A stretch of DNA of 64,000 nt from a virus. Location of the stretch: IMG/VR virus record IMGVR_UViG_3300044681_000629, positions 1 to 64,000 of that record. The stretch is one strand, 5' to 3'. Positions within the stretch are counted from its first letter, which is position 1; each line of letters opens with the position of its first letter. Below, piece by piece: positions 1 through 16,816 of the stretch. The position numbers were made by a program, and so were the translations under genes. Under the pieces are notes generated by a model that saw only the letters and a program-made list of their open reading frames with translations, was not told where the DNA came from and did not search any database.

Positions 1-226
1 CGACGGCGACTACGCCTGGTTCACCGACCAAAACAACACATACGCCATAGGCACAGGAGCCCCATACGCCCTAGGAGCACTCAACGTACTCCCCCAACCC
101 AAAAACCCCATCCAAGCACGCAAAAACGCCCTCAAAGCCATCGCCACCGCAGCCAAATACGACCCCAACACAGGACACCCATACCACACCCACATCCAAC
201 AAAACAGAAAAACTACAACAAAATGA
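1..226 (+). CDS. HslV/proteasome-like Ntn-hydrolase, C-terminal fragment
   Basis: An open frame enters from the left edge (first full codon at base 2) and stops with TGA at 224-226. The visible 74 residues contain AIGTGAPYALGAL followed by RKNALKAIATAAKYDP and TGHPYHTHI. This matches the C-terminal half of HslV/proteasome-beta-like peptidases, where a glycine-rich AIGSG...ALGAL segment is followed by a helix ending in A..DP.TG. The catalytic N-terminal Thr/Ser lies outside the window. The stop overlaps the next ATG (ATGA), which suggests translational coupling to the WhiB gene. The coding strand is strongly rich in C and A. The fold call is fairly secure; the substrate is unknown. Confidence 0.7.
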   Translation, partial: DGDYAWFTDQNNTYAIGTGAPYALGALNVLPQPKNPIQARKNALKAIATAAKYDPNTGHPYHTHIQQNRKTTTK

Positions 227-540
227 ACCACCAAAACCACACCCCAAACCCCGATACACAAACAACAAACAAATGGCAACAACACGCCAACTGCAAAGGC
301 AAAACAAACCTAATGTTCCCCCAACACCACAAAGACATCACCTACATCATCAAAGCAAGAGAACTCTGCTCCACCTGCCCAGTCACAACACAATGCCTCA
401 ACTACGCCCTCGAATACCACCCCATAGACATGCACGGCGTATGGGCAGGCATGACCAGCCGACAACTCGCAGCAGAACAAAAACGACGAGGCATCAAACC
501 AATACGCCCATCCATATCACAAATGTGGGAACTACTCTAA
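223..540 (+). CDS. WhiB-like iron-sulfur transcription factor
   Basis: A 105-residue protein with the four-cysteine WhiB pattern C24, C49-x2-C52-x5-C58, followed by GVWAGMT, a variant of the G(V/I)WGG turn, and a basic tail (KRRG). WhiB proteins hold a [4Fe-4S] cluster on these cysteines and act with the primary sigma factor. The family is essentially confined to actinobacteria and their phages, so it is a host indicator. The ATG overlaps the upstream stop as ATGA. A second WhiB-like gene lies at 33759-34118. The target promoters cannot be deduced here. Confidence 0.92.
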   Translation: MNHQNHTPNPDTQTTNKWQQHANCKGKTNLMFPQHHKDITYIIKARELCSTCPVTTQCLNYALEYHPIDMHGVWAGMTSRQLAAEQKRRGIKPIRPSISQMWELL

Positions 541-597
541 AACCCAAAAAAGTTCCCGCGTGCGTGGTTTTTTGTGGTTTGGTGTGGTTTTGTGTTT

Positions 598-670
598 GCC
601 CCTGTAACTCAGTGGTGAGAGTGGCACTCTTATAAGGTGTTGGTCGCAGGTTCGATTCCTGCCGGGGGCA
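598..670 (+). tRNA. tRNA-Ile (anticodon UAU)
   Basis: A 73-nt cloverleaf can be folded by hand: acceptor GCCCCTG/CGGGGGC with discriminator A670, D stem ACTC/GAGT, anticodon stem GCACT/GGTGT with loop CTTATAA, and T arm GCAGG-TTCGATT-CCTGC. The anticodon TAT reads AUA. CCA is not encoded; CG follows the discriminator. Most bacteria read AUA with a CAU tRNA carrying lysidine, so a dedicated UAU tRNA is unusual. It probably supplements a codon that is rare in the host. Confidence 0.88.
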
Positions 671-673
671 CGG

Positions 674-1009
674 TTAGGTGAGGCGGATTCCGCAGGTGTT
701 GCAGTAGGTGTTTTGGTTTAGTTTTGTGGGGTTTTTGTTGCAGGTGGTTTGTCCGCAGGGTTGGAGTGTTTTTTCGCCTGTGAGGTAGTCGAGTACGGGT
801 TGGAGTGGGTTGGGTGGGGTGTTGTTTTGGAGTGGGGGTTGGTTGTTGTGGGTGCGGGTTGCGTTGGTGAGGGTGCGCACCACATATGTTTGTAAACTTT
901 CTTCACAGTTTTGTGCTGTGGTGATGAGTTGGTTTTTGAGCCAGCCTGGGATGGGGATGGTGAGGTGGACGGTGTGGTCTTCTTTGGCGGGTTTAGGTTT
1001 GTGTGGCAT
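674..1009 (-). CDS. Small DNA-binding protein with C-terminal Cys cluster
   Basis: A 111-residue protein. Residues 10-50 (HTVHLTIPIPGWLKNQLI to YVVRTLTNA) look like a beta-strand plus two helices, as in ribbon-helix-helix DNA binders. The C-terminus carries C-x4-C and C-x2-C, a likely zinc ribbon. It is the last gene of a leftward unit that starts near 2005 and overlaps the preceding gene by 17 bases. The coding strand is rich in C and A (many N, T, P, Q residues). A role as a regulator is inferred; no specific family was recognised. Confidence 0.6.
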   Translation of the reverse strand: MPHKPKPAKEDHTVHLTIPIPGWLKNQLITTAQNCEESLQTYVVRTLTNATRTHNNQPPLQNNTPPNPLQPVLDYLTGEKTLQPCGQTTCNKNPTKLNQNTYCNTCGIRLT

Positions 1010-1166
1010 CGCGTTCTATGAGGGTGGTTAAGTATTCGGTGATGGACATGTCGTATGCTTCGGCTTGTTCGATGAGTTGGGTTTTGACGGTTGAGGTGAT
1101 GCGGAGGGTGAGGGTGGTGTTTCGGGTGGTGGGGGGTTTGGGTGGGCGTCCTGTGCGCTTCTTCAT
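993..1166 (-). CDS. Ribbon-helix-helix (CopG-like) regulator
   Basis: A 57-residue protein: basic start MKKRTGRPPKPP, then TTLTLRITSTVKTQLIEQA and YDMSITEYLTTLIERD. This is the canonical strand-helix-helix layout of CopG/Arc-type DNA-binding proteins, which bind as dimers. The ATG overlaps the upstream stop (ATGA at 1163-1166), fixing the start. It lies between two replication-type genes and another putative DNA binder, so it may autoregulate the small operon. Confidence 0.72.
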   Translation of the reverse strand: MKKRTGRPPKPPTTRNTTLTLRITSTVKTQLIEQAEAYDMSITEYLTTLIERDATQT

Positions 1167-1585
1167 AGGTTTACCGTAGCATTGTAGGTTTCTGTGAAAT
1201 GTAGTCGATCTGCGTTGGTGTGGAGGTTGAGGCCGACTTGTTGGATGATGGTTTGTAGTTTGGGGTGGATGCTGGTTGTTTCTATGGTGCCGGCGTTGAC
1301 GGTGTCTCTGATGTGTGTGTATTGGTTCCAGGCTTGTGCTGCTGTTGGGGGTGCGTCGGGGAGGCTGCGTAAGTATTCGGCTTTGAGCATTCCTGGGGTG
1401 GGGAGGTATTGTTCTCTGGTGGCGAGACGGTCTGCTGCTTGGAGGATTCCGTCTTTGGGTGTGTCGGCGAGTAGCCGATGCCATGCTCTATAAACGTTTT
1501 TTTGGTTGTCGGGGAGGTTGGGGAGTTCTTTGTTCCACATGGCGTAGATGATTTCTACTGTTTCGGTGAGTTCTTCTTTGTTCAT
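1163..1585 (-). CDS. Helicase-loader/inhibitor-like (G39P-type) replication protein
   Basis: A 140-residue protein. The N-terminal half (EIIYAMWNKELPN, YRAWHRLLAD, GILQAADRLA, PTPGMLKAEY) resembles the helical N-domain of phage helicase loaders and inhibitors such as SPP1 G39P, which dock the replicative helicase. The rest shows no motif. It is followed by another replication-type gene at 1622-2005 in the same leftward unit. The ATG is preceded by a divergent copy (CTTTCCGCTACCGT on the top strand) of the dispersed repeat found across the left arm. The assignment rests on pattern likeness only. Confidence 0.5.
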   Translation of the reverse strand: MNKEELTETVEIIYAMWNKELPNLPDNQKNVYRAWHRLLADTPKDGILQAADRLATREQYLPTPGMLKAEYLRSLPDAPPTAAQAWNQYTHIRDTVNAGTIETTSIHPKLQTIIQQVGLNLHTNADRLHFTETYNATVNL

Positions 1586-1621
1586 GTGCCGCTTTCCGCT
1601 ACCGTCGCCTGTTGGATGGGG

Positions 1622-2005
1622 TTACCAGTTGGGGTCGTTGAGGAATTCTGTGCGGGCGTCCCGCTGTTCGCTGAGGGTGATGAAGCGTTCTACGTTGTCT
1701 GCGTGCCGGAAGATGAGTTCGATGTCGTTATATTTTTTGTTTCTGGGGTTGTGGCCCATGTGCCAGGGGGAGTTTTTGATGCCGTTGATGGCTTGTTTGC
1801 AGGCTTCGATTCCGTAGTCGTGGATTGCCCAACCGATGCGGATGGTGCGTTTGTCGTCTAGGACGGCTTTGGAGGTGGGGTTGATGGTTTCTTTCCAGTG
1901 GGCGAACACTTGTTCTATGGCGTGTGGTGATACTTTGCGGGCTTTGGCTGCTTGTTGCCGGGTTTGTATGTGTGTTCGATCGGATTGTTTCACGGTAATC
2001 CCCAT
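1622..2005 (-). CDS. Phage replisome-organiser-like protein
   Basis: A 127-residue protein with VFAHWKETINPTSKAVLDD, IHDYGIEACKQAING, SPWHMGHN and YNDIELIFRHADNVERF. This series is typical of the C-terminal domain of phage replication proteins related to replisome organisers (a helix, a K..LD linker, then Y.dLELIfRdakniErF). The ATG sits 6 nt after a TACAGT -10 box, so the mRNA is probably leaderless. It is the first gene of the unit and borders the palindromic region 2080-2149, which could be its binding site or an origin. Confidence 0.65.
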   Translation of the reverse strand: MGITVKQSDRTHIQTRQQAAKARKVSPHAIEQVFAHWKETINPTSKAVLDDKRTIRIGWAIHDYGIEACKQAINGIKNSPWHMGHNPRNKKYNDIELIFRHADNVERFITLSEQRDARTEFLNDPNW

Positions 2006-2011
2006 GATTGA

Positions 2012-2040
2012 ACTGTAACCGATAGTTTCAGTAAAGTCAA
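2012..2040 (-). promoter_or_regulatory. Sigma70-type promoter, leaderless start of 1622-2005
   Basis: Bottom strand: TTGACT (2035-2040), 17-bp spacer, TACAGT (2012-2017), then 6 nt to the ATG at 2005. Both hexamers and the spacing match housekeeping promoters. The distance puts +1 on or next to the start codon, and no Shine-Dalgarno sequence is present. Confidence 0.75.
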
Positions 2041-2079
2041 GTGATGTAGGAACGTTGAATATCTCTGATTGTAGATGTG

Positions 2080-2149
2080 TTTCTAATTAGAAAGTTTCAT
2101 CAATTCAAGTTTGATTTCGTGGATCCACGAAAATGTGGGCTTGATGAAA
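2080..2149. repeat. Nested palindromes, candidate origin or operator
   Basis: Non-coding DNA upstream of the replication genes holds three symmetric elements: TTTCTAATTAGAAA (2080-2093, perfect), TTTCGTGGATCCACGAAA (2115-2132, perfect 18 bp), and the latter framed by TTTCATCAA (2095-2103) and TTGATGAAA (2141-2149) as inverted arms. Together they could form a cruciform. Smaller hairpins follow at 2170-2185 (CCCCTC/GAGGGG) and 2185-2198 (GGTTC/GAACC). The rest of 2041-2575 has no convincing gene. Confidence 0.55.
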
Positions 2150-2286
2150 GAAAGGTTAATCATCGACGACCCCTCTTTGGAGGGGGTTCGGGGGAACCTT
2201 TAGCACATCTTTTTTTGTGGCGGGTCAGCACAAACTAGGCCACCCGTTTTTGGGTGAACCAGGCTTCTATGCTCGCTTTCGGATCC

Positions 2287-2412
2287 GTTTCCGCCACCGT
2301 CACCCCTTACTGCTTTATTCGGGGGTTTCGATTGCTGGCAGACACTATAGCAGGGTCCGGAGTCCCGTCACAACCACCTCAACTGGTTGTGGTTTTTCCT
2401 GATGTCGGGACT
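2287..2412. repeat. Regulatory cassette 1 (dispersed repeat plus AGTCCCG pair)
   Basis: Contains GTTTCCGCCACCGT (2287-2300, one mismatch to the dispersed 14-mer), AGTCCCG (2361-2367) and its inverse CGGGACT (2406-2412). Here 38 bases separate the halves instead of the 16 or 17 seen in cassettes 2-5. A hairpin with a T-run lies between the halves. See the cassettes at 6968, 11152, 14212, 16365 and 17097. Confidence 0.6.
2369..2397 (+). terminator. Hairpin with T-run
   Basis: CACAACCA (2369-2376) pairs with TGGTTGTG (2384-2391), followed by GTTTTT. It has the form of an intrinsic terminator for rightward transcription. No rightward gene precedes it, so it may end a short non-coding RNA from 2041-2360 or block read-through. 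Confidence 0.45.
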
Positions 2413-2575
2413 CAAAACCACAACCCATAGTATGTAAAAGAAAGCAAGTGTTTGATGCTTGTTTATCTCGACGCCGGCTGATAGGGTTCTTAACAGCGGG
2501 CAAGTTCCGACCCCCATTGGGATGTCCGTCGAACAAATCCTTGCCGAATGAACCACCACCACATTCGGAAGGTAC

Positions 2576-2618
2576 AAAAAGGGTGCTGCCCGGTGTCAAG
2601 CCGAGTAGCACCCTTTTT
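2576..2618. terminator. Bidirectional intrinsic terminator
   Basis: AAAAAGGGTGCT (2576-2587) pairs with AGCACCCTTTTT (2607-2618). There is an A-run on one side and a T-run on the other, so it works in both directions. It ends the leftward operon whose last gene is 2640-2963. Confidence 0.85.
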
Positions 2619-2639
2619 ATTTGTCGCTTTCCGCCACCG

Positions 2640-2963
2640 TTAACTGTTATCAGTGTCCTTATCCACGACACGATTGCTGTTTTCCCTGTGTCGCTCAATG
2701 ATGCTGATCGCCTCCAACCTGCGTGCGATGGTCACATTGTTCACGATCGGGTACTGTTCACGTGGAGTCAGTTCACCGAAGTGCTGCTCCATCGCCTCTT
2801 CTGTACCGCACGCTGAACACACCTCAAGGGGGAGTTCTCCTCGCTTGCGTGTATGACGTGACACTGCGCCGATGAACTCACCGTACTTGTCGTTTGAAGG
2901 GATGAGACCTCCGCATCGGGGACAGATGAACTTCTCTGGGTTGATGCTGCGCTCGACTTTCAT
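2640..2963 (-). CDS. Zinc-ribbon phage protein
   Basis: A 107-residue protein with CPRCGG near residue 14 and CSACGTEEAMEQHFG near residue 49, a two-knuckle zinc ribbon seen in a family of short actinophage proteins of unknown function. GAAGG precedes the ATG, which overlaps the upstream stop (ATGA). Its stop lies inside a copy of the dispersed repeat (2627-2640), and the terminator follows, so it ends a transcription unit. Confidence 0.75.
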   Translation of the reverse strand: MKVERSINPEKFICPRCGGLIPSNDKYGEFIGAVSRHTRKRGELPLEVCSACGTEEAMEQHFGELTPREQYPIVNNVTIARRLEAISIIERHRENSNRVVDKDTDNS

Positions 2964-3316
2964 CGCGTTACCTTCTTTCTCTCTGGCTTTCCGCCACCGT
3001 TGACCGTTATATTGCCCACATCGCGTCGCGCCCGCGTGTAATTGCGTTCCTTAATGCGGATTGCTTCCACACGCCCGGGTGCATCTGATACCGCCCCCTT
3101 GAAAGATGACATAATCTCATCCAACACAAAATCAAGTTGCGTTTTGAGTGCCCGCTCTAGGGCCTTCATGTCGGTGATGCCATCAAAGACGATGCCCTGC
3201 TGGGTGAACGGGATGCCCGTACTGTCCGCTGTGAACATCTTGAGTTCGGTTCCGTTCCTCGTTCGGTTCATCCGGAACTTGATGAGGTACTGGTTTCTTT
3301 TGTTTTTGTGGTTCAT
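2960..3316 (-). CDS. Hypothetical protein carrying the repeat in its 3' end
   Basis: 118 residues from ATG 3316, chosen because AAGAAGG lies about 11 nt upstream; an in-frame ATG at 3358 would add 14 residues. No family was recognised. The central part (DGITDMKALERALKTQLDFVLDEIMSSF) is predicted helical and the C-terminus is basic. The dispersed 14-mer (2987-3000) is translated here as TVNGGGKP, so the repeat is tolerated inside a coding frame. The stop overlaps the next ATG. Confidence 0.6.
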   Translation of the reverse strand: MNHKNKRNQYLIKFRMNRTRNGTELKMFTADSTGIPFTQQGIVFDGITDMKALERALKTQLDFVLDEIMSSFKGAVSDAPGRVEAIRIKERNYTRARRDVGNITVNGGGKPERKKVTR

Positions 3317-3404
3317 GTTTAGTCTGCCTTCTTTGTGTTTCGTTTGGTTTAGTTTCATAGGTTTTTTTAAACGGTTTATAGCGGCTTTCCGCCACCGTCA
3401 ACTG

Positions 3405-3728
3405 TTAGATGGAGTTGTTTCGGAAATACTCCTCCGCTGCTTGCATCCCTTTTTGAAGGATGAGTGAGATTGGGAGGAACGCTGCCGCCCCGTCGCCGTA
3501 TGTTTCACCGTTGGTTTCAATGGACGACTCAATCATCTGTTCTAGTTTGTCGCCGTTGAATGCGACAATGATTTGTCCTTCGAACCCGGTGACGATAGGT
3601 CCCAGTTCGCCGTCGGGGAACGCTCTGCCTGGTGCGGTGATGAAGGTCAACTCTTGACCGACATCGTTCCTCATCCGTATCATCACATCTTCGTCGTCGT
3701 GAACGTACTCAAACTTCATTTCGTCCAT
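3405..3728 (-). CDS. Hypothetical acidic protein
   Basis: 107 residues, acidic N-terminus (EYVHDDEDVMIRM), then alternating strand-like segments (ELTFITAPG, GQIIVAFNGDKLEQMI) and a helical end. No recognised family. The stop codon lies in the extension of the dispersed repeat (3385-3398). It is part of the leftward small-gene series with 3738-3968 and 2960-3316. Confidence 0.55.
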   Translation of the reverse strand: MDEMKFEYVHDDEDVMIRMRNDVGQELTFITAPGRAFPDGELGPIVTGFEGQIIVAFNGDKLEQMIESSIETNGETYGDGAAAFLPISLILQKGMQAAEEYFRNNSI

Positions 3729-3737
3729 CCTCTCATT

Positions 3738-3968
3738 TTACTTCACTTCCGTTTCCCACTGGATGCCAGTGTTCATTTCCACCACATACTTGGTGTTTTT
3801 GGTTTGGTTGGTTATCACGAGAAAGGTTGCGCCTTCCCCGTTGCTTCGTAACGCATCGTCTAGGTCTCCTGTTGCTTGTGCTACCACATCGTTGAAGTCG
3901 TTGCTTTCGTATGTGTTCGTCCAAGTAACAGTCCAACTATCCGGTTTTTCCTGTTCTTCTTCTAACAT
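3738..3968 (-). CDS. Hypothetical small protein
   Basis: 76 residues starting after a strong AAGGAGG; the dispersed repeat (3986-3999) lies just upstream of that ribosome-binding site. The content (SWTVTWTNTYES, GATFLVITNQTKNTKYVVEM) suggests a small beta-rich fold. No known family. It ends 9 bases before the next start. Confidence 0.55.
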   Translation of the reverse strand: MLEEEQEKPDSWTVTWTNTYESNDFNDVVAQATGDLDDALRSNGEGATFLVITNQTKNTKYVVEMNTGIQWETEVK

Positions 3969-4014
3969 TTGTTTCCTCCTTGTGGCTTTCCGCCACCGTC
4001 GAGTGTTAGATGGA

Positions 4015-4542
4015 TCAGTGGTGATAATCCCACACCACCAGAAACTGCTGGTCTGGGTTGTTTTTGATGCGCTCGGTCAGAAACTCCTCGCCTGCGGTTC
4101 CGCCGTCAACATCAAAGAAATGTTGGTCGCAAGTGAAGTTGCCGTCAACGATTTCAAGGAGACGCTTCGCCCAGAACCGTGACAAATAGTCGCGCAACGC
4201 CTGGTCTCGTTCTTCTTCTGTTGGTTCCACGCCGTCTTGCCTCGGTGGAAGAACGCCGTACTTCGGGTTTGTTGCGAGTTCTTTGACGGTCACGTCGCCG
4301 AGTTGCTCAACGTATCGGTTCTTCGAAGTTTCGGTGTAACCACGAAACTCCTTGACGAGTTCTGCGAACCGTTCAGGGTTGTCGCTGTACCTGAGTACCG
4401 CACCCTTCACAACTTCGCTCCAACGACCGCCGTGTTCGTTCCAGTCCGACCAGTGTGCTGCGTGTTCGTTGAAGATGTCAACTTTACCAACTGCGTCGTT
4501 CGGATCGTCTGCTTGAACTGCAAGAACTATCCCTGTATGCAT
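4015..4542 (-). CDS. Hypothetical protein, acidic and helical
   Basis: 175 residues. It begins MHTGIVLAVQADDPNDAVGKV and contains many acidic helices (TEEERDQALRDYLSRFW). No conserved catalytic motif was seen. The start is set by AAGGAGTAATC before the ATG and by the promoter at 4578-4606. The coding content is typical of the surrounding genes. Confidence 0.6.
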   Translation of the reverse strand: MHTGIVLAVQADDPNDAVGKVDIFNEHAAHWSDWNEHGGRWSEVVKGAVLRYSDNPERFAELVKEFRGYTETSKNRYVEQLGDVTVKELATNPKYGVLPPRQDGVEPTEEERDQALRDYLSRFWAKRLLEIVDGNFTCDQHFFDVDGGTAGEEFLTERIKNNPDQQFLVVWDYHH

Positions 4543-4577
4543 GATTACTCCTTATGTTTAGTAAATCTATTACACCT

Positions 4578-4606
4578 ATTGTAATAGGCCAGCAGGGATT
4601 ATGCAA
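4578..4606 (-). promoter_or_regulatory. Promoter for 4015-4542
   Basis: Bottom strand: GGGG then TTGCAT (4601-4606), 17 bp, TACAAT (4578-4583). The -35 is preceded by a run of G, as in four other promoters of this phage (17889, 22305, 42464, 42551). The leader continues with CTAAAC and AAGGAG. Confidence 0.65.
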
Positions 4607-4961
4607 CCCCTGCGTGTCTGTTGCGCGCTTCCGTTTCAATCTGCTTCATGGAAGTTGGAACAAAGTAGAGGTCGCGCTCAACTGCCGGAAGTGTGTTTCC
4701 GCCGAGTGCGACGTTCATCATCTCGCTGAGTGAGAAGTAACCCCACTCAACTTCGAAACCTTCCACGAGTCCGAAGAAAGTGTCCTCGCCGTCAAACTCA
4801 ACCGCATACCAACGCCAACCGTTGTATGGGGAGAAGTATTTGACTTGCGCCATCTTCTCCTCAATCGGAAGGTTCTCAGTTTCGTACAGTTTCGGGAGAC
4901 GCTTTCGGATTTCTTCGGTCATCATCTTGTGACGACGCTGCCCTTGATACGGTTCGCTCAT
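4599..4961 (-). CDS. DUF2958-family protein
   Basis: 120 residues from the ATG at 4961, which overlaps the upstream stop (ATGA). Diagnostic stretches are MTEEIRKRLPKLYETE, VKYFSPYNGWRWYAVEFDGED, FFGLVEGFEVEWGYFSLSEM and PAVERDLYF, which follow the DUF2958 pattern (kRLP.Ly, D..W.WYa.E, ffG.V.G.E.EwGYFsL.EL, .veRDl.F). The family is common in phages and plasmids and has no known function. Confidence 0.82.
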   Translation of the reverse strand: MSEPYQGQRRHKMMTEEIRKRLPKLYETENLPIEEKMAQVKYFSPYNGWRWYAVEFDGEDTFFGLVEGFEVEWGYFSLSEMMNVALGGNTLPAVERDLYFVPTSMKQIETEARNRHAGVA

Positions 4962-5278
4962 GATGAGAACTCCTCTTCTTCGTCTGATGCCCCCTGAGGG
5001 ACAAGTTGTGTGTAACCGTCGTTGGGGTTCGCAATGTTTGTTTCCACCGAACTGATGAAACGCAAACCGCACGACTCCTCGTACCATTCCTTCACTTTGT
5101 CAAACATTTCCTCTTGTGAGGAACGGAAGATTTGGTAGTTGCTGTTCAGGAACGATGTTGCTTCCAACTCGTCCATCGCCAAATAGATTTTGTGACATCC
5201 ATCGAATGCCACGAGGTGCGCTGAACTGCACGCCTCACGGACATCTTTGAACATTTCACCCAATGTTTTGGTTTTCAT
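4958..5278 (-). CDS. Hypothetical protein
   Basis: 106 residues, mixed helix and strand, acidic C-terminus (DEEEEFSS). CTAAACC and AAGGAG precede the ATG. It is translationally coupled to the DUF2958 gene downstream. No family was recognised. Confidence 0.6.
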   Translation of the reverse strand: MKTKTLGEMFKDVREACSSAHLVAFDGCHKIYLAMDELEATSFLNSNYQIFRSSQEEMFDKVKEWYEESCGLRFISSVETNIANPNDGYTQLVPQGASDEEEEFSS

Positions 5279-5311
5279 GTTTCTCCTTAGGTTTAGTTGG
5301 TTTATTGGAAT

Positions 5312-5334
5312 ACTTTATGTGAGGGGTGTTACAC
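5312..5334 (-). promoter_or_regulatory. GTGTTACAC-type promoter for 4958-5278
   Basis: The palindrome GTGTTACAC (5326-5334) is followed on the bottom strand by CCCCTCACA and TAAAGT (rc at 5312-5317). The palindrome starts 17 bp before the -10, the slot directly downstream of the -35 region. This fits an operator placed in the spacer. The same layout recurs at six other left-arm promoters. Confidence 0.6.
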
Positions 5335-5799
5335 GATTTCCAACGGGATCAACGTCTCGTTGAGAACTTCCTTGATGAAAGGTCGGATACCCGAGTTGAT
5401 TTCCTCGTTGTAGACCGTCCAAATGTAGTCATTCCCGAGAATGTACGAACCGAATGCGTCCAACTCTTCGTCGGTGAACTTCAACGCACGCTGATAGTAC
5501 GGGTCGTCATCCCAAACACCAGAGTCGAGTTTCGCTTGGAACTCTTCCCGGAGTGCCTCAGGACTGAATGCGATTGTGTTTCCGTAGTTCAGGTCACCGA
5601 ACCCACAGTTCGTGAGAATGCGTGCCAGGTCTTTCCCTGCGTATTCGCCGAGTTCGCGTGCGTCGCTGTCGCTGCCGCACTTTTCCCACTCGTTCCAGAT
5701 GTCTTTCGCTTTGTCGTCAAAGGTGCTGTCGTCAACCAACACGCACCCTTCTAAACCGACTACCGTTCCGTCGGTGACGTTGATGATGAACTTTGCCAT
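5329..5799 (-). CDS. Hypothetical protein
   Basis: 156 residues: MAKFIINVTDGTVVG start, then helices rich in acidic and aromatic residues (KDIWNEWEKCGSD, FTDEELDAFGSYIL). It resembles other phage proteins of this size in tone, but no family is recognised. The stop overlaps the promoter of the next gene. A sigma70-type promoter lies upstream at 5860-5888. Confidence 0.58.
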   Translation of the reverse strand: MAKFIINVTDGTVVGLEGCVLVDDSTFDDKAKDIWNEWEKCGSDSDARELGEYAGKDLARILTNCGFGDLNYGNTIAFSPEALREEFQAKLDSGVWDDDPYYQRALKFTDEELDAFGSYILGNDYIWTVYNEEINSGIRPFIKEVLNETLIPLEIV

Positions 5800-5859
5800 G
5801 TGTTTTCCTTTGGTTTAGTTTGTTTAGTGGATACTTGGGGGTGTTTCCCCCTATCCGAC

Positions 5860-5888
5860 AGATTATCGGACAGGGGGACGCTTGTCAA
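5860..5888 (-). promoter_or_regulatory. Sigma70 promoter for 5329-5799 within a long dyad
   Basis: Bottom strand: TTGACA (5883-5888), 17 bp, TAATCT (5860-5865). The -10 region sits in an inverted repeat (CCCCCTGTCCGAT and ATCGGATAGGGGG type arms around 5848-5878), so it may be a hairpin or operator. The -35 overlaps the end of the upstream gene. Confidence 0.68.
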
Positions 5889-6517
5889 CCCTTTATTGCG
5901 GTCTTGAACAGTTTGCGAATGTCGTCGCTGAGTCCATAGATGACCTGACCTTCGCAACGATCCCTGACATCGTTCACGCTTTCGTGGTACTCGTCCATCT
6001 GGTCATAGTCGGGTTCGCCGTCCTCGTCGCATGGGAAGTCAGGAAACTTGCCCTCAACGTCGGAGAGAAGGTCGCCGTTTGCAACACCGACCGAACCAAC
6101 CAACTCGCACCCACCCTCTTCGTAGGACACCACGAACACAAGTTTCGGGTATTCCTTAGAAATGGTGATAAGACCCTGAATACCTGGGTCCCACGCTGTC
6201 GTGTAGTAGAACTGCGCCATCGTCTCACCCTCTTCGTAGTAAGAGAGGTCGGTGTCGTAGTCACCCCACTTCGTACCCCAGTTGTGGAGACACCACTCGT
6301 ACCAGTCAGATACGCCGTACTTCGCAATCATGTCTGGTTTCTTGGTGAAGTTTGCGGTGACTTCTTGTAACTCTTGTGGACACGGATAGTTGTTCTTGTA
6401 AATCGAATACGACGTTTCGCCGCTCTCATTCACTGGGTTGCTGGAAACCTTGACGAACTCTGAAAGTTCCTTCGGGTCACCAACCACCGTTAGGTAGTTA
6501 GAACAATGGTTTGGCAT
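5885..6517 (-). CDS. Api92/YubB-like (DUF1281) protein
   Basis: 210 residues starting MPNHCSNYLTVVGDPKEL, the signature opening of Api92/YubB-like proteins (MPNWC.N.L.v.G) with a ferredoxin-like fold. Further matches to the family are WYEWCLHNWGTKW and a WDPG-x-QGL segment. The family occurs in phages and conjugative plasmids with no proven activity. SD GGAAGGAG precedes the ATG and a GTGTAACAC-type promoter lies at 6570-6592. Confidence 0.78.
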   Translation of the reverse strand: MPNHCSNYLTVVGDPKELSEFVKVSSNPVNESGETSYSIYKNNYPCPQELQEVTANFTKKPDMIAKYGVSDWYEWCLHNWGTKWGDYDTDLSYYEEGETMAQFYYTTAWDPGIQGLITISKEYPKLVFVVSYEEGGCELVGSVGVANGDLLSDVEGKFPDFPCDEDGEPDYDQMDEYHESVNDVRDRCEGQVIYGLSDDIRKLFKTAIKG

Positions 6518-6569
6518 TGCTTGTTTCTCCTTCCGACTTGCGCCGGTCTAGTTAGGTTTATTTGCCCCC

Positions 6570-6592
6570 ACCTTACAGAAGGGGTGTAACAC
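6570..6592 (-). promoter_or_regulatory. GTGTAACAC-type promoter for 5885-6517
   Basis: GTGTAACAC at 6584-6592, then CCCCTTCTG and TAAGGT (rc at 6570-6575) on the bottom strand. The palindrome begins 17 bp from the -10. Confidence 0.6.
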
Positions 6593-6647
6593 AGTTTCTA
6601 TGAAGTCTGCTTTGTTTATCCAAGTCTATGGTCTGTTTAGATAAATG

Positions 6648-6878
6648 TCAACCCCATTTGTCCAGTTCGTTGCGGAAGTCTGCAACAACCTCATTTTCAA
6701 TAACTTCCAACAAACGGTCAACCTCTGGTCGAACGACACTAAGTGCGTCCATGACGTACCCCATGCGCTCCCCAGACATTTCCCCCTGCTCAATGAGGTC
6801 ACCCACAACGCGACTCAACGCCTTCTGGATTTCCCAAAGTTGTGAATAAGTAAGTGTTATCTGTGTTTTATGTGTCAT
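6648..6878 (-). CDS. Hypothetical small helical protein
   Basis: 76 residues from MTHKTQITLTYSQLWEIQK; an upstream in-frame ATG at 6926 would add 16 residues but looks non-coding. Two helices are likely (LWEIQKALSRVVGDLIEQ and RPEVDRLLEVIENEVVADFRN, interrupted). No family. It is the first gene downstream of cassette 2 on the leftward strand. Confidence 0.52.
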   Translation of the reverse strand: MTHKTQITLTYSQLWEIQKALSRVVGDLIEQGEMSGERMGYVMDALSVVRPEVDRLLEVIENEVVADFRNELDKWG

Positions 6879-6967
6879 GTCAGGATTACGCACGGATCGG
6901 CTGCCGGTGTGACCAGATTTTCGCATTTTTTCGACTTTTTGGGATCCCTGGCGGCCCGCTGCAGCGG

Positions 6968-7047
6968 CTTTCCGCCACCGTCGGACTTATCTGACCCCCA
7001 GATGGCCCCATTCTGGGAGTCCCGCCAGATGCCAGAGCATCGGGACT
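6968..7047. repeat. Regulatory cassette 2
   Basis: CTTTCCGCCACCGT (6968-6981), then AGTCCCG (7018-7024) and CGGGACT (7041-7047) as an inverted pair with a 16-nt gap. A GC-rich palindrome (CCGCTGCAGCGG) lies just left of the 14-mer. The cassette separates a leftward gene from the divergent SOS-type gene at 7110. Confidence 0.7.
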
Positions 7048-7076
7048 GTCGACAAACTTTCCGGGGTTGGTGCTGG

Positions 7077-7105
7077 CGAACAGGTGTTCGGCGAACTAGT
7101 GTTCG
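7077..7105 (+). promoter_or_regulatory. Tandem LexA (SOS) boxes
   Basis: CGAACAGGTGTTCG (7077-7090) and CGAACTAGTGTTCG (7092-7105) both match the Gram-positive/actinobacterial LexA consensus CGAAC-N4-GTTCG exactly and sit 15 bp apart. The second box contains TAGTGT, a plausible -10, ending 7 nt before the ATG at 7110. LexA binding would therefore block a leaderless start. The same 14-mer as box 1 recurs at 21397-21410. Confidence 0.88.
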
Positions 7106-7109
7106 GGGT

Positions 7110-7484
7110 ATGACCATTACACGAGATGAAAGGTGGCAGGAGCATTTCGATGCCCTGCACCAATACACAAACAGAACGGGCAACGCCCTCGTCCCAACAA
7201 CTCACGTTGAGATTTACAATGGCAAGAACATTGCTCTCGGCGCGTGGGTTGCATACAACCGTCAGCGTCAGCGTGCTGGCACTCTCCCCGTTGAGCGTGT
7301 CAATGCACTCGGCGGCCTGAGCGGTTGGAAGTGGGAGAAGCAGCAACCTGGACGACGCTACGACAAGAGTCGTGACGAAGTAATCATCAAGGCATACACG
7401 AACGGTACATCGGCGAAGGATCTCGCCAAACAGTACGGTTTGTCTCGTCAACGAGTTCACCAGATCGTCAGGAACAAGGCCTGA
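7110..7484 (+). CDS. Helicase-associated domain plus HTH DNA-binding protein, SOS-controlled
   Basis: 124 residues. Residues 7-75 (RWQEHFDALHQYTNRTGNA, LGAWVAYNRQRQRAGTL, RVNALGGLSGWKWE) match the helicase-associated domain, a three-helix DNA-binding module. Residues 88-122 (DEVIIKAYTNGTSAKDLAKQ, YGLSRQRVHQIV) form a helix-turn-helix. The ATG follows the tandem LexA boxes by 4 bp with no clear SD, so expression is probably induced by DNA damage. It may act as a transcription switch. Confidence 0.78.
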   Translation: MTITRDERWQEHFDALHQYTNRTGNALVPTTHVEIYNGKNIALGAWVAYNRQRQRAGTLPVERVNALGGLSGWKWEKQQPGRRYDKSRDEVIIKAYTNGTSAKDLAKQYGLSRQRVHQIVRNKA

Positions 7485-7485
7485 T

Positions 7486-7863
7486 TTGGAAGACAAACAA
7501 TCGTGGAAACGTGGTGAATCCGGCGACAAGGGAAACAGATTTCGTGTTCCCAAAGTTGTTGACGAAGAAACTCCGAGCGATGATTTCGGAGACTTCTTCG
7601 ATGGCTACGAAGACCTCACAGAACTCGCTGAGTTCAACGAGAAGTGGGATAAGTACCACAGTAGGAGTCGCATGACAAAGTTCTTCACCGCATTGTTTGG
7701 TTTTGTTTCTGTCGTAAGTGTTTACGCAGTAGCGTTTTTCTTCGGCCTCACCGCGCTCGGTGTTGAATCATTTGAGTACCGTGACGCAGTAATCGTCTCT
7801 GCGTGTTTCGTGTTTATCCGTGTCGTTGATACGGCGATCACGCAGCAGGTGAAGAGTCGATAG
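7486..7863 (+). CDS. Two-TM membrane protein in the SOS operon
   Basis: 125 residues from a TTG start 1 nt after the preceding stop (AACAAGG upstream). An acidic soluble N-terminus (about 60 residues) is followed by two hydrophobic segments, about 66-90 (FFTALFGFVSVVSVYAVAFF) and 98-118. No signal peptide or known domain. Its position in a damage-induced pair could fit a holin-like or membrane-effector role, but nothing in the sequence proves it. Confidence 0.6.
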   Translation: MEDKQSWKRGESGDKGNRFRVPKVVDEETPSDDFGDFFDGYEDLTELAEFNEKWDKYHSRSRMTKFFTALFGFVSVVSVYAVAFFFGLTALGVESFEYRDAVIVSACFVFIRVVDTAITQQVKSR

Positions 7864-7873
7864 AAACACCGAA

Positions 7874-7943
7874 GGGCGGGTGGTGCAAGGAGTCACCGAC
7901 CCGCCCCCGGCGGAGCGAACAAAGGGTGAAAGGAGAAAGCCCC
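7874..7943 (+). terminator. Hairpins and 19-bp repeat at a convergent junction
   Basis: GGGCGGGT-GGTG pairs with CACC-g-ACCCGCCC (7874-7906), a strong hairpin without a T-run. It is followed by GGTGAAAGGAGAAAGCCCC (7925-7943), repeated exactly at 24837-24855, which forms a small stem with CTTTC downstream. Both copies lie between a rightward small membrane-protein gene and a leftward gene. Confidence 0.45.
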
Positions 7944-8003
7944 TTTCGCTCTAGCAGACAGAATAACACATAATGTCATGTCATTCTGAAAGCAGGTTGG
8001 GGA

Positions 8004-9512
8004 TTATCCCCCCAACCTCTTTCCGTTGAGATTCTCGTAGGTTTGTTTCCACGGAGTCGGATACCAACGCTTCGGTGTCTTGCCCAACTTGAGTTCCTTC
8101 AAGACCTCAATGCCCTTGTCAACCGTTGGTGCGAGAAACACCTTGCCTTTGAGTGCTTCCTTTATGCAATCCATCGCAAGTATGTCGTGGTATCCACCCC
8201 ACGCGCCACCGTTGCCGAGACCATGCACCTGACCGTCAGTAATCCAAACGACAGGAGTGGTTGAACGCTTGCGTTGCTTCAATGCCCAACGGATTGCTTC
8301 TCCGTCAACACCGTTGCCGCCGTTCCTCTCAGGAAGTTTGTCAACCATCTTCCCGTTCTCTGCGAGTACGAGAAGGTTGTCCTTCTTGTTGTCTCGGTCT
8401 GCCGAGTAGACCGCAACCGTGCAACCAGGTGCGTTCTCGGTGATTTCAAGAATCTGCTTACTGTGCAGACTCATTGAACCTGAACCGTCAATCAGAACGA
8501 CCCCACCATTGCCCTTCTTCATCGTGTCAAACACACGACGCTGAGGATCGACGAGTGCGTTACCGATACGACGAGGGTTACGTCCCATCGCAGACGCAAT
8601 ACGCTTGCGTCCGAGACCACCCTTCGCACGACGAGTCATCGGAAGGTGCTTCACCTTGAGTTCACCCCAAGTGGGGACGACACCATTGCGACCACGAGGG
8701 TCTGCAGGGTTGATCTTTGACAAGTCAACAGGTGGTTTCTTTTCGTCGTTCGCCTTGTTGTTGGTCGCACGATTTTCCGGATTTCCCTGATTCTTGTCTT
8801 CCTTCTCGCCTTCGTTCGGTGCGCCGTTGCCGTTCTCACCGTCTTGTGCGTCGTCTTCTTCTTGCTGGATACTTGCAAGTCGGTCAATCCACTCTGCGAT
8901 TCGTTCCGTGTGCGCGAAACCGAAAGGTGCGAGACCCGTGCGTGGATCGACTTCAGTTGAACCGAGGTCGCCACGCTTGTATGCCTTCACCATTTCTTTC
9001 TCAACACGCTTGGTGATGTCTTTGAGACTCTGACCCCACGCACGATTCACTCGTCGTACACCCGTGAGGAAGTCCTTGCCGCCACCACAGTATGAGTATC
9101 CAACCGCCGTGTAGACCAACGACGCCCAATCGCCACGTTCCGCAAGAAGTGTTCCCGAAGTGAGTTCCGACCCGTCGCTGAGAACGCTGGTGTCGAATCC
9201 TGCCTTCTTGACCAGGAAGTTCACTCGTACTTCTTCAACGACTCGCAACGCTTGCTCGGTCGCAATCTTTCGGTCAATCCACTTCCCGAAGTCTTCTGCA
9301 GGTGACACTCGTGCGTGCATCATTTCGTGCGCACGGATAACGCGGTCAATCTGCTCGTCTGCCACGGGAACGACCATGTGTCGTCCAACGATGTCGGTCA
9401 TTGGTTTGCCACGCACCGGTTTGCAGGTGTCAATGCGCCAACCGCCATCTTCGTTCTGTCGATCTTTGCGCCCCAACATTTCTGGAAGGGGACGGATTTC
9501 TGTCTTGTTCAT
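8004..9512 (-). CDS. VWA-domain protein with HExxH metallopeptidase-like N-terminus
   Basis: 502 residues. HEMMH at 62-66 within RAHEMMHARVSP is a zincin-like motif. A long acidic, low-complexity linker (about 220-270) leads to a von Willebrand A domain with the MIDAS start VVLIDGSGSMS and a later WITDG. This is the layout of DUF2201/CobT-type VWA partners of MoxR ATPases. The cognate AAA+ gene is immediately downstream on the same strand. Such pairs remodel or activate protein complexes, often with metal-centre chemistry. The phage target is unknown. Confidence 0.82.
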   Translation of the reverse strand: MNKTEIRPLPEMLGRKDRQNEDGGWRIDTCKPVRGKPMTDIVGRHMVVPVADEQIDRVIRAHEMMHARVSPAEDFGKWIDRKIATEQALRVVEEVRVNFLVKKAGFDTSVLSDGSELTSGTLLAERGDWASLVYTAVGYSYCGGGKDFLTGVRRVNRAWGQSLKDITKRVEKEMVKAYKRGDLGSTEVDPRTGLAPFGFAHTERIAEWIDRLASIQQEEDDAQDGENGNGAPNEGEKEDKNQGNPENRATNNKANDEKKPPVDLSKINPADPRGRNGVVPTWGELKVKHLPMTRRAKGGLGRKRIASAMGRNPRRIGNALVDPQRRVFDTMKKGNGGVVLIDGSGSMSLHSKQILEITENAPGCTVAVYSADRDNKKDNLLVLAENGKMVDKLPERNGGNGVDGEAIRWALKQRKRSTTPVVWITDGQVHGLGNGGAWGGYHDILAMDCIKEALKGKVFLAPTVDKGIEVLKELKLGKTPKRWYPTPWKQTYENLNGKRLGG

Positions 9513-9611
9513 GTTTCTCCTATTTGTTTATGGTTTAGTTTCGGGCCACTTGCTTATGGCGGCCCTATTGACACCCCCACCTTACGGCAGGGGTGTCATG
9601 GGGTTATTCGG

Positions 9612-10355
9612 TCAGACCGCAACCTTGTTGATTGCGATTGCGTCCAAGAACGCTTGTGCTTGCGCACCGAAGATGAGTCGTGCTGACTCTTCGTCGCCCA
9701 TGCTTGAACGGAGTTTGTCAAACGCATAGAACGTGCGGAGAGAGATTCGTCGCTCGCCTGCGTCTGCCATGCGAACCGCATAAGGTCGCAAGTCTCCTGA
9801 CAACATTGCCAACGCGTCAGGGTGAGGTTGGTTGACTCGGATTGCCACGGGGAATCGATCACGCAACGCCTCGGGGAGTTCGTCCATGTTCTCAATGTTC
9901 GTGGTCATCACGACGCTGAATCCGTCCTGAGGACGCACCACACGACCGTTGTCGGGGTGCTCCCACTTCGCCGAGTCATGTGAGTCGGTCATTGCCAAGA
10001 GGGTTGCGAAGACATCGCCACCTGCCTTGTCAATCTCGTCAACTACGAGACGACCACCACGGAGTCCGTCGCCCTGCCATGCCTTGACCGCAGAACCTTC
10101 GTGCCACGACCAACCGCCGTTGCCGTTCATCTTGTAGTGACCGACGACATCTGCGTTCGTCATGTCTTCGGTGCAGATGAGTCGCCATGCTCCTGCGTTG
10201 ACATCACCGTAGTTGAGACCTGCGAAGGTCTTTCCGGTTCCTGGAGGTCCGAACAGAATGAGTCTGTCGATCCCTGCGTTGAGTGCGTTCTCAACGTCCT
10301 TCCAACATTGCGGAAGGTCTTGACGAACCTCTCGCTGGTTTGCTTGCTGTGCCAT
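9612..10355 (-). CDS. MoxR-like AAA+ ATPase
   Basis: 247 residues from ATG 10355 (GGAAGGAG upstream; an ATG 18 nt earlier is less well placed). Walker A GPPGTGKT at 36-43, Walker B RLVVDEIDKAG, sensor 1 MTTN, and EALRDRF for the arginine-finger region define a MoxR/CobS-type AAA+ core. It is paired with the VWA protein at 8004-9512. The two probably form a chaperone complex in which the ATPase hexamer works on a VWA-bound client. Confidence 0.92.
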   Translation of the reverse strand: MAQQANQREVRQDLPQCWKDVENALNAGIDRLILFGPPGTGKTFAGLNYGDVNAGAWRLICTEDMTNADVVGHYKMNGNGGWSWHEGSAVKAWQGDGLRGGRLVVDEIDKAGGDVFATLLAMTDSHDSAKWEHPDNGRVVRPQDGFSVVMTTNIENMDELPEALRDRFPVAIRVNQPHPDALAMLSGDLRPYAVRMADAGERRISLRTFYAFDKLRSSMGDEESARLIFGAQAQAFLDAIAINKVAV

Positions 10356-10413
10356 TTTATTTCTCCTTCCCACTCTGCTGGTGGGTCTAGTTGGTTTACT
10401 TGCTTACCCCATC

Positions 10414-10436
10414 ATTGTATGTTGGGGGTGTAACAC
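10414..10436 (-). promoter_or_regulatory. GTGTTACAC-type promoter for the MoxR gene
   Basis: Palindrome at 10428-10436 and, 17 bp on, TACAAT (rc at 10414-10419) on the bottom strand. A leader with AAGTAAACC and GGAAGGAG follows. Confidence 0.62.
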
Positions 10437-10489
10437 GGTTTATTGTGTTGGTTGTGGGGGTGGTTGCCCACCCCCGACTCCCACTTCTA

Positions 10490-10897
10490 TTACGCAACCT
10501 TCGTTGCTTTGTGTGACTCTGCCACTTCGTTGCTGACATCGTAGACACGCACCGCTTCAACGAGTGTGTAGGTCGTGATCGCTTCTGCGATGTCACTCTT
10601 GATGTCGCCGAGTTCAACCGCCGACTTGAACTTCTTGGAGTCCACTTCAACCTTCGTGACCTTCTTGAAGAGTTTGTCCGAGACGAGACCCTTCAATGCG
10701 TCAACCGAGAACTTTGCGCGCTCGCTCTTGACGACCATGACCTTCTGACCTTCAACGATGTTGAAGTCAACGCCGTTCTGTGCGAACGACTCCTTCATGA
10801 TTACTTCTGCTTGCGCCAACGCTTGCTGCGCCACTTCGACCGCTTGACGTGCCGAAAGGTACTGCTTGGTTGCTTCGCTGATTCTTGCCTTTGCCAT
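10490..10897 (-). CDS. Hypothetical helical protein of the MoxR-VWA locus
   Basis: 135 residues. The N-terminal 45 are a probable coiled coil rich in Ala and Gln (LSARQAVEVAQQALAQAE). A strand-rich part (NIVEGQKVMVVKSERAKFSV) and a Lys-rich middle follow. No family recognised. It has AAGGAG and precedes the MoxR gene in the same direction, so it may be a client or adaptor of the pair. Confidence 0.6.
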   Translation of the reverse strand: MAKARISEATKQYLSARQAVEVAQQALAQAEVIMKESFAQNGVDFNIVEGQKVMVVKSERAKFSVDALKGLVSDKLFKKVTKVEVDSKKFKSAVELGDIKSDIAEAITTYTLVEAVRVYDVSNEVAESHKATKVA

Positions 10898-10955
10898 TTC
10901 ATTGCTCCTTGTTGTTGTTTGGTTTACTTGCTTGCCCCATCAGTATTGCTCAGGG

Positions 10956-11072
10956 GTGTTACACGGTTTATCTGCTGTCTTTCACTTTATCGGAGAGTTT
11001 GATAGAAGTCAACTATCTTTTTAGAAACTTCCCGACTTGCTTGACGACCATCTTAGGGAAGGGGTGTTACAC
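10956..11072 (-). promoter_or_regulatory. Two GTGTTACAC operator-promoters in tandem
   Basis: GTGTTACAC occurs at 10956-10964 and 11064-11072, both reading leftward toward 10490-10897. The outer copy has TAAGAT (rc 11050-11055) 17 bp from the palindrome start. The inner has AATACT at the same offset. No gene lies between them. Confidence 0.58.
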
Positions 11073-11151
11073 GGTTTCCGGAGTGACCGATCCAAGATTT
11101 GGATTGAGTCCAAACTTTGATTTAGCACTAAACCGTCTGGCCCTGGGGCCG

Positions 11152-11241
11152 CTTTCCGCCACCGTAGGACTTCGGGATCGACACATCGGCCTCGGCGCGC
11201 CGCTCCCCTGGAGTCCCGACACTCCGCATCACAGCGGGACT
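11152..11241. repeat. Regulatory cassette 3
   Basis: CTTTCCGCCACCGT (11152-11165), AGTCCCG (11212-11218) and CGGGACT (11235-11241) with a 16-nt gap. It lies between the end of gene 11248-11445 and the promoters of the MoxR-VWA locus. Confidence 0.72.
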
Positions 11242-11247
11242 GCCGGA

Positions 11248-11445
11248 TTAGAACAAAGAATCTTGGTTGATGTATTTGGGGGAGTCAATGCACATTTTGT
11301 GCGCCCACCCCAAAGCAGCCGATGGATTTCGGACATTTCCCGTGTATTTACCAGACTTGTAGTCCACCCACCCGACGACCTTTGCGACAGTCGCCATAAC
11401 TTCGGTGTCCAAGTCCTCGTTGCAGAGCGAGCATTGAACCTTCAT
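11248..11445 (-). CDS. Small Cys protein (zinc-binding?)
   Basis: 65 residues: CSLCNE at 5-10, a later HKMC, and otherwise neutral sequence (GWVDYKSGKYTGN). The C-x2-C plus H-x2-C spacing suggests one zinc site. Last gene of the leftward unit upstream of cassette 3. Confidence 0.58.
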   Translation of the reverse strand: MKVQCSLCNEDLDTEVMATVAKVVGWVDYKSGKYTGNVRNPSAALGWAHKMCIDSPKYINQDSLF

Positions 11446-11455
11446 GCCCGTGAGT

Positions 11456-11617
11456 CTAACCGCCGATCGGTTCGGTTTCCGCCTCGCACATCATCAGGTG
11501 AAGTCTGATGTCCAGAAGAAGGTCGGTCATCTCTGACGACGACACAAGGTCACGGCCAGAGATGGTGGTAATCGCTTTGTCCAGAAGTTCTGTTGCGTTC
11601 TTGATGTGGTCAGTCAT
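11456..11617 (-). CDS. Hypothetical 53-aa helical protein
   Basis: Short gene: ATG 11617 preceded by GGAG, stop TAG at 11456. It encodes MTDHIKNATELLDKAITTIS then a second helix (EMTDLLLDIRLHLMMCEAE). The tight packing between two genes on the same strand and the good ribosome-binding site support it. Function unknown. Confidence 0.6.
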   Translation of the reverse strand: MTDHIKNATELLDKAITTISGRDLVSSSEMTDLLLDIRLHLMMCEAETEPIGG

Positions 11618-11620
11618 CTG

Positions 11621-11800
11621 TTACTCCGCTATTGGTAGATAGTTTACCGCATAATCGACAACGTGTCGCCTACAAACGATGTGTTCGTTGTAAACAGATA
11701 ACGCTGTTGTGCAACCGTGCCATGCGCAACGACGAATACCGTCGCTGTCGATTACCGGGATAAGTTCCTCGTTCATTACAGATTTAGGTGTTTTGCTCAT
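11621..11800 (-). CDS. Small zinc-finger-like protein, 59 aa
   Basis: The ATG overlaps the upstream stop (ATGA) and the TAA ends 3 nt before the next start. The sequence has C25AWHGC30 and C43RRH46, a compact C2-CH zinc site. A similar-sized zinc protein is encoded at 19214-19393. Role unknown. Confidence 0.62.
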   Translation of the reverse strand: MSKTPKSVMNEELIPVIDSDGIRRCAWHGCTTALSVYNEHIVCRRHVVDYAVNYLPIAE

Positions 11801-12428: not shown

Positions 12429-12470
12429 GTTTGCTCCTTTGGTTTAGGTTTACGGCAGGGTGTTCCCCTG

Positions 12471-12985: not shown

Positions 12986-13017
12986 GTTTACTCCTTTGGT
13001 TTAGGTTTACGAATAAC

Positions 13018-14305: not shown

Positions 14306-14307
14306 GC

Positions 14308-16813: not shown

Positions 16814-16816
16814 CGG

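Follow-up and report, generated by a model that had tools for sequence, protein, structure and literature searches.

A conserved pyrimidine mirror repeat upstream of phage initiator and helicase-loader genes as a candidate replication-initiation element

In the replication module of phage lambda, gene O is followed by gene P, and the O-like domain is the part that recruits the helicase. To our knowledge, few natural triple-stranded structures have a defined role in bacteria and phages. In SPP1, with its gp38-gp39-gp40 module, the origin oriL lies inside gene 38 and contains direct repeats that are bound by gp38, as described in the sections of PMC6316719 dealing with this origin. Cluster A mycobacteriophages without repA carry RNA-based prophage origins that adjoin parABS, and derivatives of Alma and LadyBird without the origin region grow normally in the lytic cycle, according to the passages on these origins in PMC7157519. 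Thus, as far as these sections go, initiator-loader modules and RNA-based phage origins both exist. Sequences able to form three strands have been described as intrastrand triplex motifs (TM/PIT; Holder 2015, PMC4666352); in the parts of that paper on motif structure and distribution, the Watson-Crick pyrimidine strand of the TM is on the same strand, the motif occurs in many copies and its E. coli form was not found in phages by the authors, while H-DNA is given as a homopurine mirror repeat that follows the mirror rule.

The element described here, located in a phage contig, shares traits with the origins of SPP1 and of the cluster A phages and lacks defining features of each. As in the SPP1 and lambda modules, a gene for an initiator domain precedes a gene for a loader of the G39P/lambda P kind, a non-coding element adjoins them, and the O-like helicase-recruiting domain of such modules was found in the initiator product (1622-2005). 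However, there is no iteron array (only six two-copy families were found in 1990-2660), the match of the initiator to O-like profiles is confined to their C-terminal part and, in contrast to SPP1, the conserved element is upstream of the gene and contains a mirror repeat. With the cluster A phages Alma, LadyBird and RedRock it has in common the association, here probable, with phages of Actinobacteria and a non-coding RNA, here predicted, at the likely origin, but an O-like gene and a loader gene follow the element in our case, whereas the cluster A origin stands next to parABS with no rep-like gene. As regards an expressed RNA needed for replication, which would mark an origin of the cluster A type, the feature observed here is a promoter-like box. 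The likeness to TM/PIT motifs, as these are characterised in the sections of Holder 2015 (PMC4666352) referred to above, lies in the G/C-rich mirror-like arms, the 3-nt loop and the purine strand; the published E. coli TM pattern, in which a pyrimidine strand and two purine arms share one strand, has no match in the window, and the phage core, in contrast to the TM, occurs at most once per record and is tied to replication genes. With H-DNA-forming sequences the element shares a homopurine/homopyrimidine tract with mirror symmetry (window 2181-2195), but its arms measure only 4-9 nt and sit within a conserved element with the fixed flanks AAAG(G)...C(C)AAA, and the triplex is putative.

The window, by which we mean the whole stretch of 64,000 nucleotides that was analysed, is part of a 66,589-base virus record and derives from a tailed phage; a Pfam Phage_capsid gene is present, together with genes for a primase/helicase, a helicase and ribonucleotide reductase. 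One contig of 114 kb (G001), which belongs to the window's own species, matches window 23621-64000 and 2-2064 with 99.3-99.4% identity and breaks at window 2064, beside the palindromes discussed below; from this overlap layout we infer that the phage genome is circularly permuted or circular. The features that concern the genes are as follows:

223-540, plus strand: WhiB-family gene, convergent (Pfam Whib, E 3.7e-15)
1163-1585, minus strand: apparent helicase loader of the SPP1 G39P/lambda P kind (profile and Foldseek matches)
1622-2005, minus strand: O-like replication initiator, C-terminal domain only, 127 aa (PHROG 16167, PHROG 18020)
2012-2040, minus strand: predicted initiator promoter, with TTGACT at 2035-2040, a spacer of 17 bp and TACAGT at 2012-2017

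WhiB genes were present in all 16 records searched (one of which, G001, is the window's own species), and among 14 control genomes Corynebacterium glutamicum alone has one, which suggests actinobacterial hosts for these phages. Several core-bearing contigs are longer than 100 kb and likewise carry WhiB genes, and Actinobacteria are probably the hosts of the large phage group in which the element is found. Three loci with an initiator and a core-like sequence (L165, L168 and L169) come from contigs whose bins are assigned to an archaeon and to planctomycetes, and these are probably misbinned phage contigs. Elsewhere in the window there are a tRNA-Ile(TAT) at 598-671, Pfam matches to the TerC family (13319-14038) and to Hist_deacetyl (43083-44078), and a ParB_N match just above the cut-off (28513-29277), the sole ParB_N among the proteins scanned.

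The initial annotation had pointed to a replisome-organiser-like gene beside a cluster of palindromes, and the product of 1622-2005 is indeed recognised as an O-like initiator: residues 16-112 align with positions 173-269 of the 315 positions of PHROG 16167 (E 1.4e-14), and PHROG 18020, termed ‘replication initiation O-like’, matches as well. Since it aligns solely to the C-terminal part of these longer profiles, no origin-binding domain, and in particular no N-terminal one, is recognised in the 127 aa; the initiator may still bind DNA through another route. Its structure model (pLDDT 86) is all helical, and a fold search of the PDB with this model gave no match at E up to 0.001. Relatives were found in 33 phage records; the cultured phages among the matches listed are mostly phages of Vibrio and other Proteobacteria, and in the Vibrio phage relative H11, the sole one inspected among 20 listed, the match covers the C-terminal portion of a protein of 262 aa. 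The TACAGT box is separated by 6 nt from the initiator ATG, a spacing read from the sequence, and the initiator mRNA is probably leaderless. As for the loader, a Pfam search of the 1163-1585 product gave no match, and the protein belongs to PHROG 9804, whose function is listed as unknown in PHROGs. The profile of its family (A4) nevertheless hits SPP1 G39P (1NO1) with E 1.3e-6, and Foldseek places the model with probability 1.00 on both lambda P (9oa1) and 1no1, at E-values of 0.054 and 0.10, respectively, which means that the claim relies on this probability together with the independent sequence match. PHROG 9804 thus appears to be a family of helicase loaders of the G39P/lambda P type. In 52 of 55 loci the same strand carries, further downstream, a relative of the loader whose open frame begins no more than 1.7 kb from the core, and two of the other three loci are cut off.

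Upstream of the initiator gene, outside the palindromes flagged in the initial annotation, a block at 2175-2352 is conserved between loci and comprises the following parts:

2175-2201, minus strand: conserved core AAAGGTTCCCCCGAACCCCCTCCAAAG, recognised by cross-locus comparison, with arms TCCCCC and CCCCCT around GAA (2181-2195)
2175-2340, minus strand: predicted transcribed non-coding element of about 165 nt, from sequence comparison
2240-2257, minus strand: hairpin TCACCC-aaaaac-GGGTGG, fixed in its position relative to the core, from a positional hairpin test
2280-2287: 8-bp palindrome CGGATCCG, the window's copy of a lineage-specific palindrome between promoter and hairpin
2344-2352, minus strand: extended -10 promoter-like box TGCTATAGT, the predicted start of a short RNA toward the core

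The core was first noticed when the regions upstream of initiator relatives were compared; it follows the pattern AAAG(G)-T-[arm]-NNA-[arm reversed]-C(C)AAA and reads AAAGGTTCCCCC-GAA-CCCCCTCCAAAG on the minus strand of the window. A first pattern scan of IMG/VR returned 71 stretches, and a second pattern, with fixed flanks and three pyrimidines at each end of the middle but with no symmetry required, gave at least 120 matches. In all loci then collected, the second pattern marks 131 distinct sites, 87 of which have an initiator relative downstream, a number that includes near-identical strains and the window's own species twice. The 44 sites with no initiator downstream were excluded before counting; the arms are mirrors in 12 of them and non-mirror pyrimidine tracts in 13, and 6 have less than 700 bases of downstream DNA. 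One of these 13 (L043) is a core at a contig end that resembles this family, with the mirror broken by one C. Similar cores with no initiator relative found downstream were seen in L189, L270, L193, L230 and L232; in the first two of these, base pairing between the upstream flank and the left arm is possible and would give a hairpin plus a third strand, in the way that intrastrand triplex motifs are drawn in the published sections cited above. When the search started from the protein, the best 80 of 455 initiator relatives were kept and yielded 79 new loci, of which 9 were left out for their short upstream DNA and 25 because the DNA upstream was identical. The core is present upstream of the initiator in 41 of the 45 non-redundant loci obtained in this way and absent in four (L110, L119, L132 and L143); because the protein query alignment was built from core-bearing loci and some contigs are shared by both collections, linkage and core are not fully independent of each other, and the two sets are not independent. 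A single core was counted in 12 of 15 records, and none has two.

Searches for an existing description gave little. At the gathering score, Rfam matches only a tRNA in the window and nothing over the element; with loose E-values, window 1900-2750 and nine related loci gave only hits below the gathering score apart from a tRNA. A nucleotide search of a phage collection with window 1-6000 returned matches to the tRNA region alone, the same search with the element of one relative returned six weak short matches, and no description was found among open-licence papers. The element is an undescribed non-coding element just upstream of phage replication-start genes. As a separate observation, a count by eye among the best 80 of the 455 relatives gave 12 contigs that end no more than 500 bp upstream of the initiator match and one that ends no more than 500 bp downstream of it; strain variation, a strong structure or a physical end could account for such contig ends.

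The central property of the core is its symmetry. The arms consist of pyrimidines only and are exact mirrors of each other in all initiator-linked cores, both those found through the protein (41/41) and those found by pattern (87/87), these sets being overlapping, and the arm pairs flank a centre of 3 or 5 nt. Since the sites share ancestry, the number of distinct arms is a safer basis than 87 or 41: there are 11 of them (TCCC, TCTC, TTTC, TCCCC, TTCCC, TCCCCC, TTCCCC, TCCCCCC, TTCCCCC, TTTCCCCC and TTCCCCCCC, each with its reverse), and all 11 pairs are mirrors. When the right arms were permuted 20,000 times, 1.0 pairs on average and 7 at most were mirrors; the parse does have some freedom, since it accepts either one or two closing G/C and centres of 3 or 5. 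None of the 11 pairs is a direct repeat. Within the window alone, two mirror repeats of such a size occur against 0.55 expected, so that the mirror is not rare there and the case depends on the comparison between loci. Closely related phages show that the arms change together: TCTC/CTCT becomes TTTC/CTTT between L104 and L194 (88% identical), C6/C6 becomes C5/C5, with one C fewer per arm, between L145 and L262 (96% identical), and both arms are likewise altered together in the pairs L258/L206 and L121/L190. A protein-coding core was considered and rejected, because a difference of one C per side between near-identical phages would shift any frame; a Watson-Crick hairpin as the conserved feature was also rejected, since inverted-repeat matches number 0 or 1 per initiator-linked core and the centres ACA, AAA and AGA leave nothing to pair. 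Ordinary palindromic pairing and dimeric proteins do not give a mirror pattern, whereas mirrored arms that co-vary are what a triple helix would call for, either as a purine fold-back or as a pyrimidine clamp. The conserved mirror symmetry with its co-changing arms suggests that a triple-stranded structure has been under selection.

Further features recur between loci around the core. A promoter-like box (TGNTANNNT) is found at -230 to -95 of the core in 43 of the 52 loci with enough upstream DNA, whereas 6.6 would be expected from shuffles. Between box and core, a palindrome of at least 8 bp is present in 50 of 55 loci (16.7 expected) and one of at least 10 bp in 37 of 55 (4.9 expected), its sequence varying by lineage, while a control region further upstream has palindromes of at least 10 bp in 13 of 50 loci (5.9 expected). 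In 31 of 55 loci, 37-44 nt separate the end of the best hairpin in the region from the core that follows, as against a mean of 8.1 and a maximum of 14 in 200 shuffles. Two control regions have a mild hairpin excess too (Fisher p of about 0.01 each, versus 3e-6 for the fixed-position region). The stems at this position are unrelated (for instance, TCACCC/GGGTGG, GCCTTCC/GGAAGGT and ATCTGCGATT/AATCGCGGAT), which implies that structure is kept while sequence changes; RNAalifold found no pairs in a 55-row alignment and nothing usable in seven groups. The 120 bp after the core are on average 10.5 points richer in AT than the flanks, and richer in 52 of 54 loci, although as a sign of an origin this has to be weighed against the fact that intergenic promoter regions are AT-rich anyway. 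Skews were discarded as origin markers: the extreme of purine skew is near the core in four of seven records and elsewhere in three, following gene orientation, and GC and keto skew were likewise uninformative.

The suggestion in the initial annotation that an origin lies here gains from its context, namely the O-like initiator, the G39P/lambda-P-like loader and the AT-rich stretch after the core. The reading that we favour, with a confidence that stays somewhat short of even, is that the region is a transcribed replication-initiation element, most likely an origin, which would work through a triplex or an R-loop-like structure. It builds on mirror conservation, linkage to the initiator, the fixed-position hairpin, the promoter-like box and loader homology, all of which come from sequence comparison. 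A promoter at about 2350 would drive a short RNA toward the initiator gene; this RNA would carry the hairpin and end in or near the pyrimidine mirror-repeat core at 2175-2201. The purine template strand might then fold back, or be clamped by the RNA, either of which is possible because the arms mirror each other, to give a triple-stranded RNA-DNA or H-form structure that would hold the helix open beside the AT-rich spacer. At the opened spacer, the truncated O-like initiator (1622-2005) and the loader (1163-1585) would place the replicative helicase, and, more speculatively, the short RNA could also prime synthesis. Five consecutive C+GC triads are unfavourable at neutral pH, so that a purine-motif fold-back of the template strand, held by RNA or DNA, seems likelier than a pyrimidine-motif triplex. 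The E. coli G/C-rich triplex motif folded as a single strand in vitro but neither in duplex DNA nor by in vivo footprint, according to the experimental sections of PMC4666352 on this motif, and serves as a warning against taking such a structure for granted. A further-reaching proposal, which we hold to be doubtful, is that this would be an origin of a new kind, in which specificity comes from a nucleic-acid triple helix and not from a DNA-binding initiator: the origin would be opened by a triple-stranded R-loop made of a dedicated transcript and the mirror tract, while the initiator, its origin-binding half having been lost, would only bring helicase and loader. In broader terms, a short mirror tract beside replication genes suggests a role for a three-stranded nucleic-acid structure in starting or controlling phage DNA replication, and a mirror element tied to an initiator and a loader gene would make a simple genetic test system for triplexes in replication start.

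A serious rival is a regulatory RNA for the initiator gene. In this explanation, which is possible if on balance unlikely, a leader, an attenuator or an antisense-like copy-number control sets the expression of initiator and loader and is itself not an origin, the core being the end of the RNA and, in some lineages, forming a terminator-like hairpin with a G run. A promoter-like box and a fixed-position hairpin upstream of an initiator gene are consistent with it, and GGG occurs within 14 nt after the core in 29 of 55 loci, where it could pair with the right arm. However, the G run is absent in the other 26 loci; the lineages inspected by eye show, downstream of the element, separate promoter-like boxes for the initiator, which is apparently leaderless; and a regulatory RNA does not explain why the arms need to be mirrored.

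The second rival concerns the palindromes between the core and the initiator gene, on which the initial annotation had focused. The 14-bp and 18-bp palindromes and the flanking arms that it had described are all present, with the two palindromes perfect:

2080-2093: 14-bp perfect palindrome TTTCTAATTAGAAA, from a palindrome search
2095-2103, plus strand: outer hairpin arm TTTCATCAA, from an inverted-repeat search
2115-2132: 18-bp perfect palindrome TTTCGTGGATCCACGAAA, apex of the hairpin, from a palindrome search and folding
2141-2149, plus strand: outer hairpin arm TTGATGAAA, from an inverted-repeat search

Perfect palindromes of at least 14 bp number 4 in the window against 3.7 expected from 60 shuffles, so that the 14-mer alone is unremarkable, whereas for at least 18 bp the expectation is 0.18 per window. 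Shuffling 2041-2200 5000 times gave a palindrome of at least 14 bp in 51 cases, one of at least 18 bp in 2 and two of at least 14 bp in 1; the 18-mer, and the pair within 53 bp, are unusual. The RNA of 2076-2160 folds into a nested hairpin (z -3.6, with none of 200 shuffles as stable), and the hairpin's z across relatives is -3.1 in the window, -2.4 in L088, -2.9 in L003 and only -0.9 in L004. The 18-bp repeat is kept in near relatives (L003-L006 and L088/L089) as an inverted repeat with a centre of 3 nt, compared with 2 nt in the window, and was not seen by eye in L007-L011, so that the expectation of palindromes shared by relatives holds for half of the case; the 14-bp palindrome was not seen in three near relatives aligned with the window. 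The outer arms differ yet still pair in L088 and L003 (GGTGGTTT/AAACCATC and CAAGTTG/CAACTTG), which indicates that the hairpin is preserved. Both palindromes (2080-2132) are located in the AT-rich spacer, about 40 bp away from the -35 box (2035-2040) on its upstream side.

It has been proposed that these palindromes are sites for the 1622-2005 product or for a repressor, acting as an operator or an initiator box, and we consider this improbable. Their place just upstream of the initiator promoter, the retention of the 18-bp repeat in near relatives and an excess of spacer palindromes of at least 12 bp (7 of 54 loci, 1.9 expected) argue for it. Against it, the spacer is no richer in palindromes of at least 10 bp (15/54, 7.0 expected) than the control (13/50, 5.9 expected), the 18-bp repeat is missing from view in L007-L011, and the protein aligns to the C-terminal part of O-like profiles only. 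In addition, the change in half-site spacing from 2 to 3 nt, together with outer arms that vary and still pair, fits a hairpin better than a dimer site, and the case for initiator binding is accordingly weak. The palindromes are lineage-specific parts of the same intergenic region and the least conserved part of the larger element; they would form a hairpin and may also serve the initiator promoter as an operator.

For L145/L262, 24,897 aligned columns around the core contain no purine change that fits the arms except in the core's own complement. The one other G6-to-G5 site was considered as a purine partner in cis and rejected, since it becomes G5C and does not fit. For L104/L194 (4,839 columns), one AGAG-to-AAAG change outside the core is left as a candidate. 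A trans-acting role for the transcript, as a small RNA with C-rich arms that would bind purine-rich stretches (ribosome-binding sites, for instance), is highly improbable: the C/U-rich arms are complementary to GGAGG-like purine runs, but where they differ between close relatives, these two comparisons show no clear counterpart elsewhere in the DNA, the one candidate aside, and the mirror symmetry of the second arm is left unexplained.

Several further repeats surround the element. Window 2360-2425, directly upstream of the -10-like box, holds the nested inverted repeats GAGTCCCGTCA/TGTCGGGACTC and GGTTGTGGTTTT/AAAACCACAACC, several relatives have GGGACT or AGCCCCGC blocks at this place, and the stretch is possibly a second structured element. 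At 2576-2618 there is an inverted repeat with 18-nt arms (89% complementary) that ends in a T run, resembling a terminator hairpin. Finally, ACGGTGGNGKAAA occurs in 10 copies with at most one mismatch (0.66 expected) on the minus strand of window 1593-17110, all on the strand of the initiator and 9 of the 10 upstream of the core, and ACGGTGGYGGAAAG is matched in 14 of 16 records, in each of these 14 on a single strand; these repeats look like a -35 region with a fixed spacer, that is, like early phage promoters.
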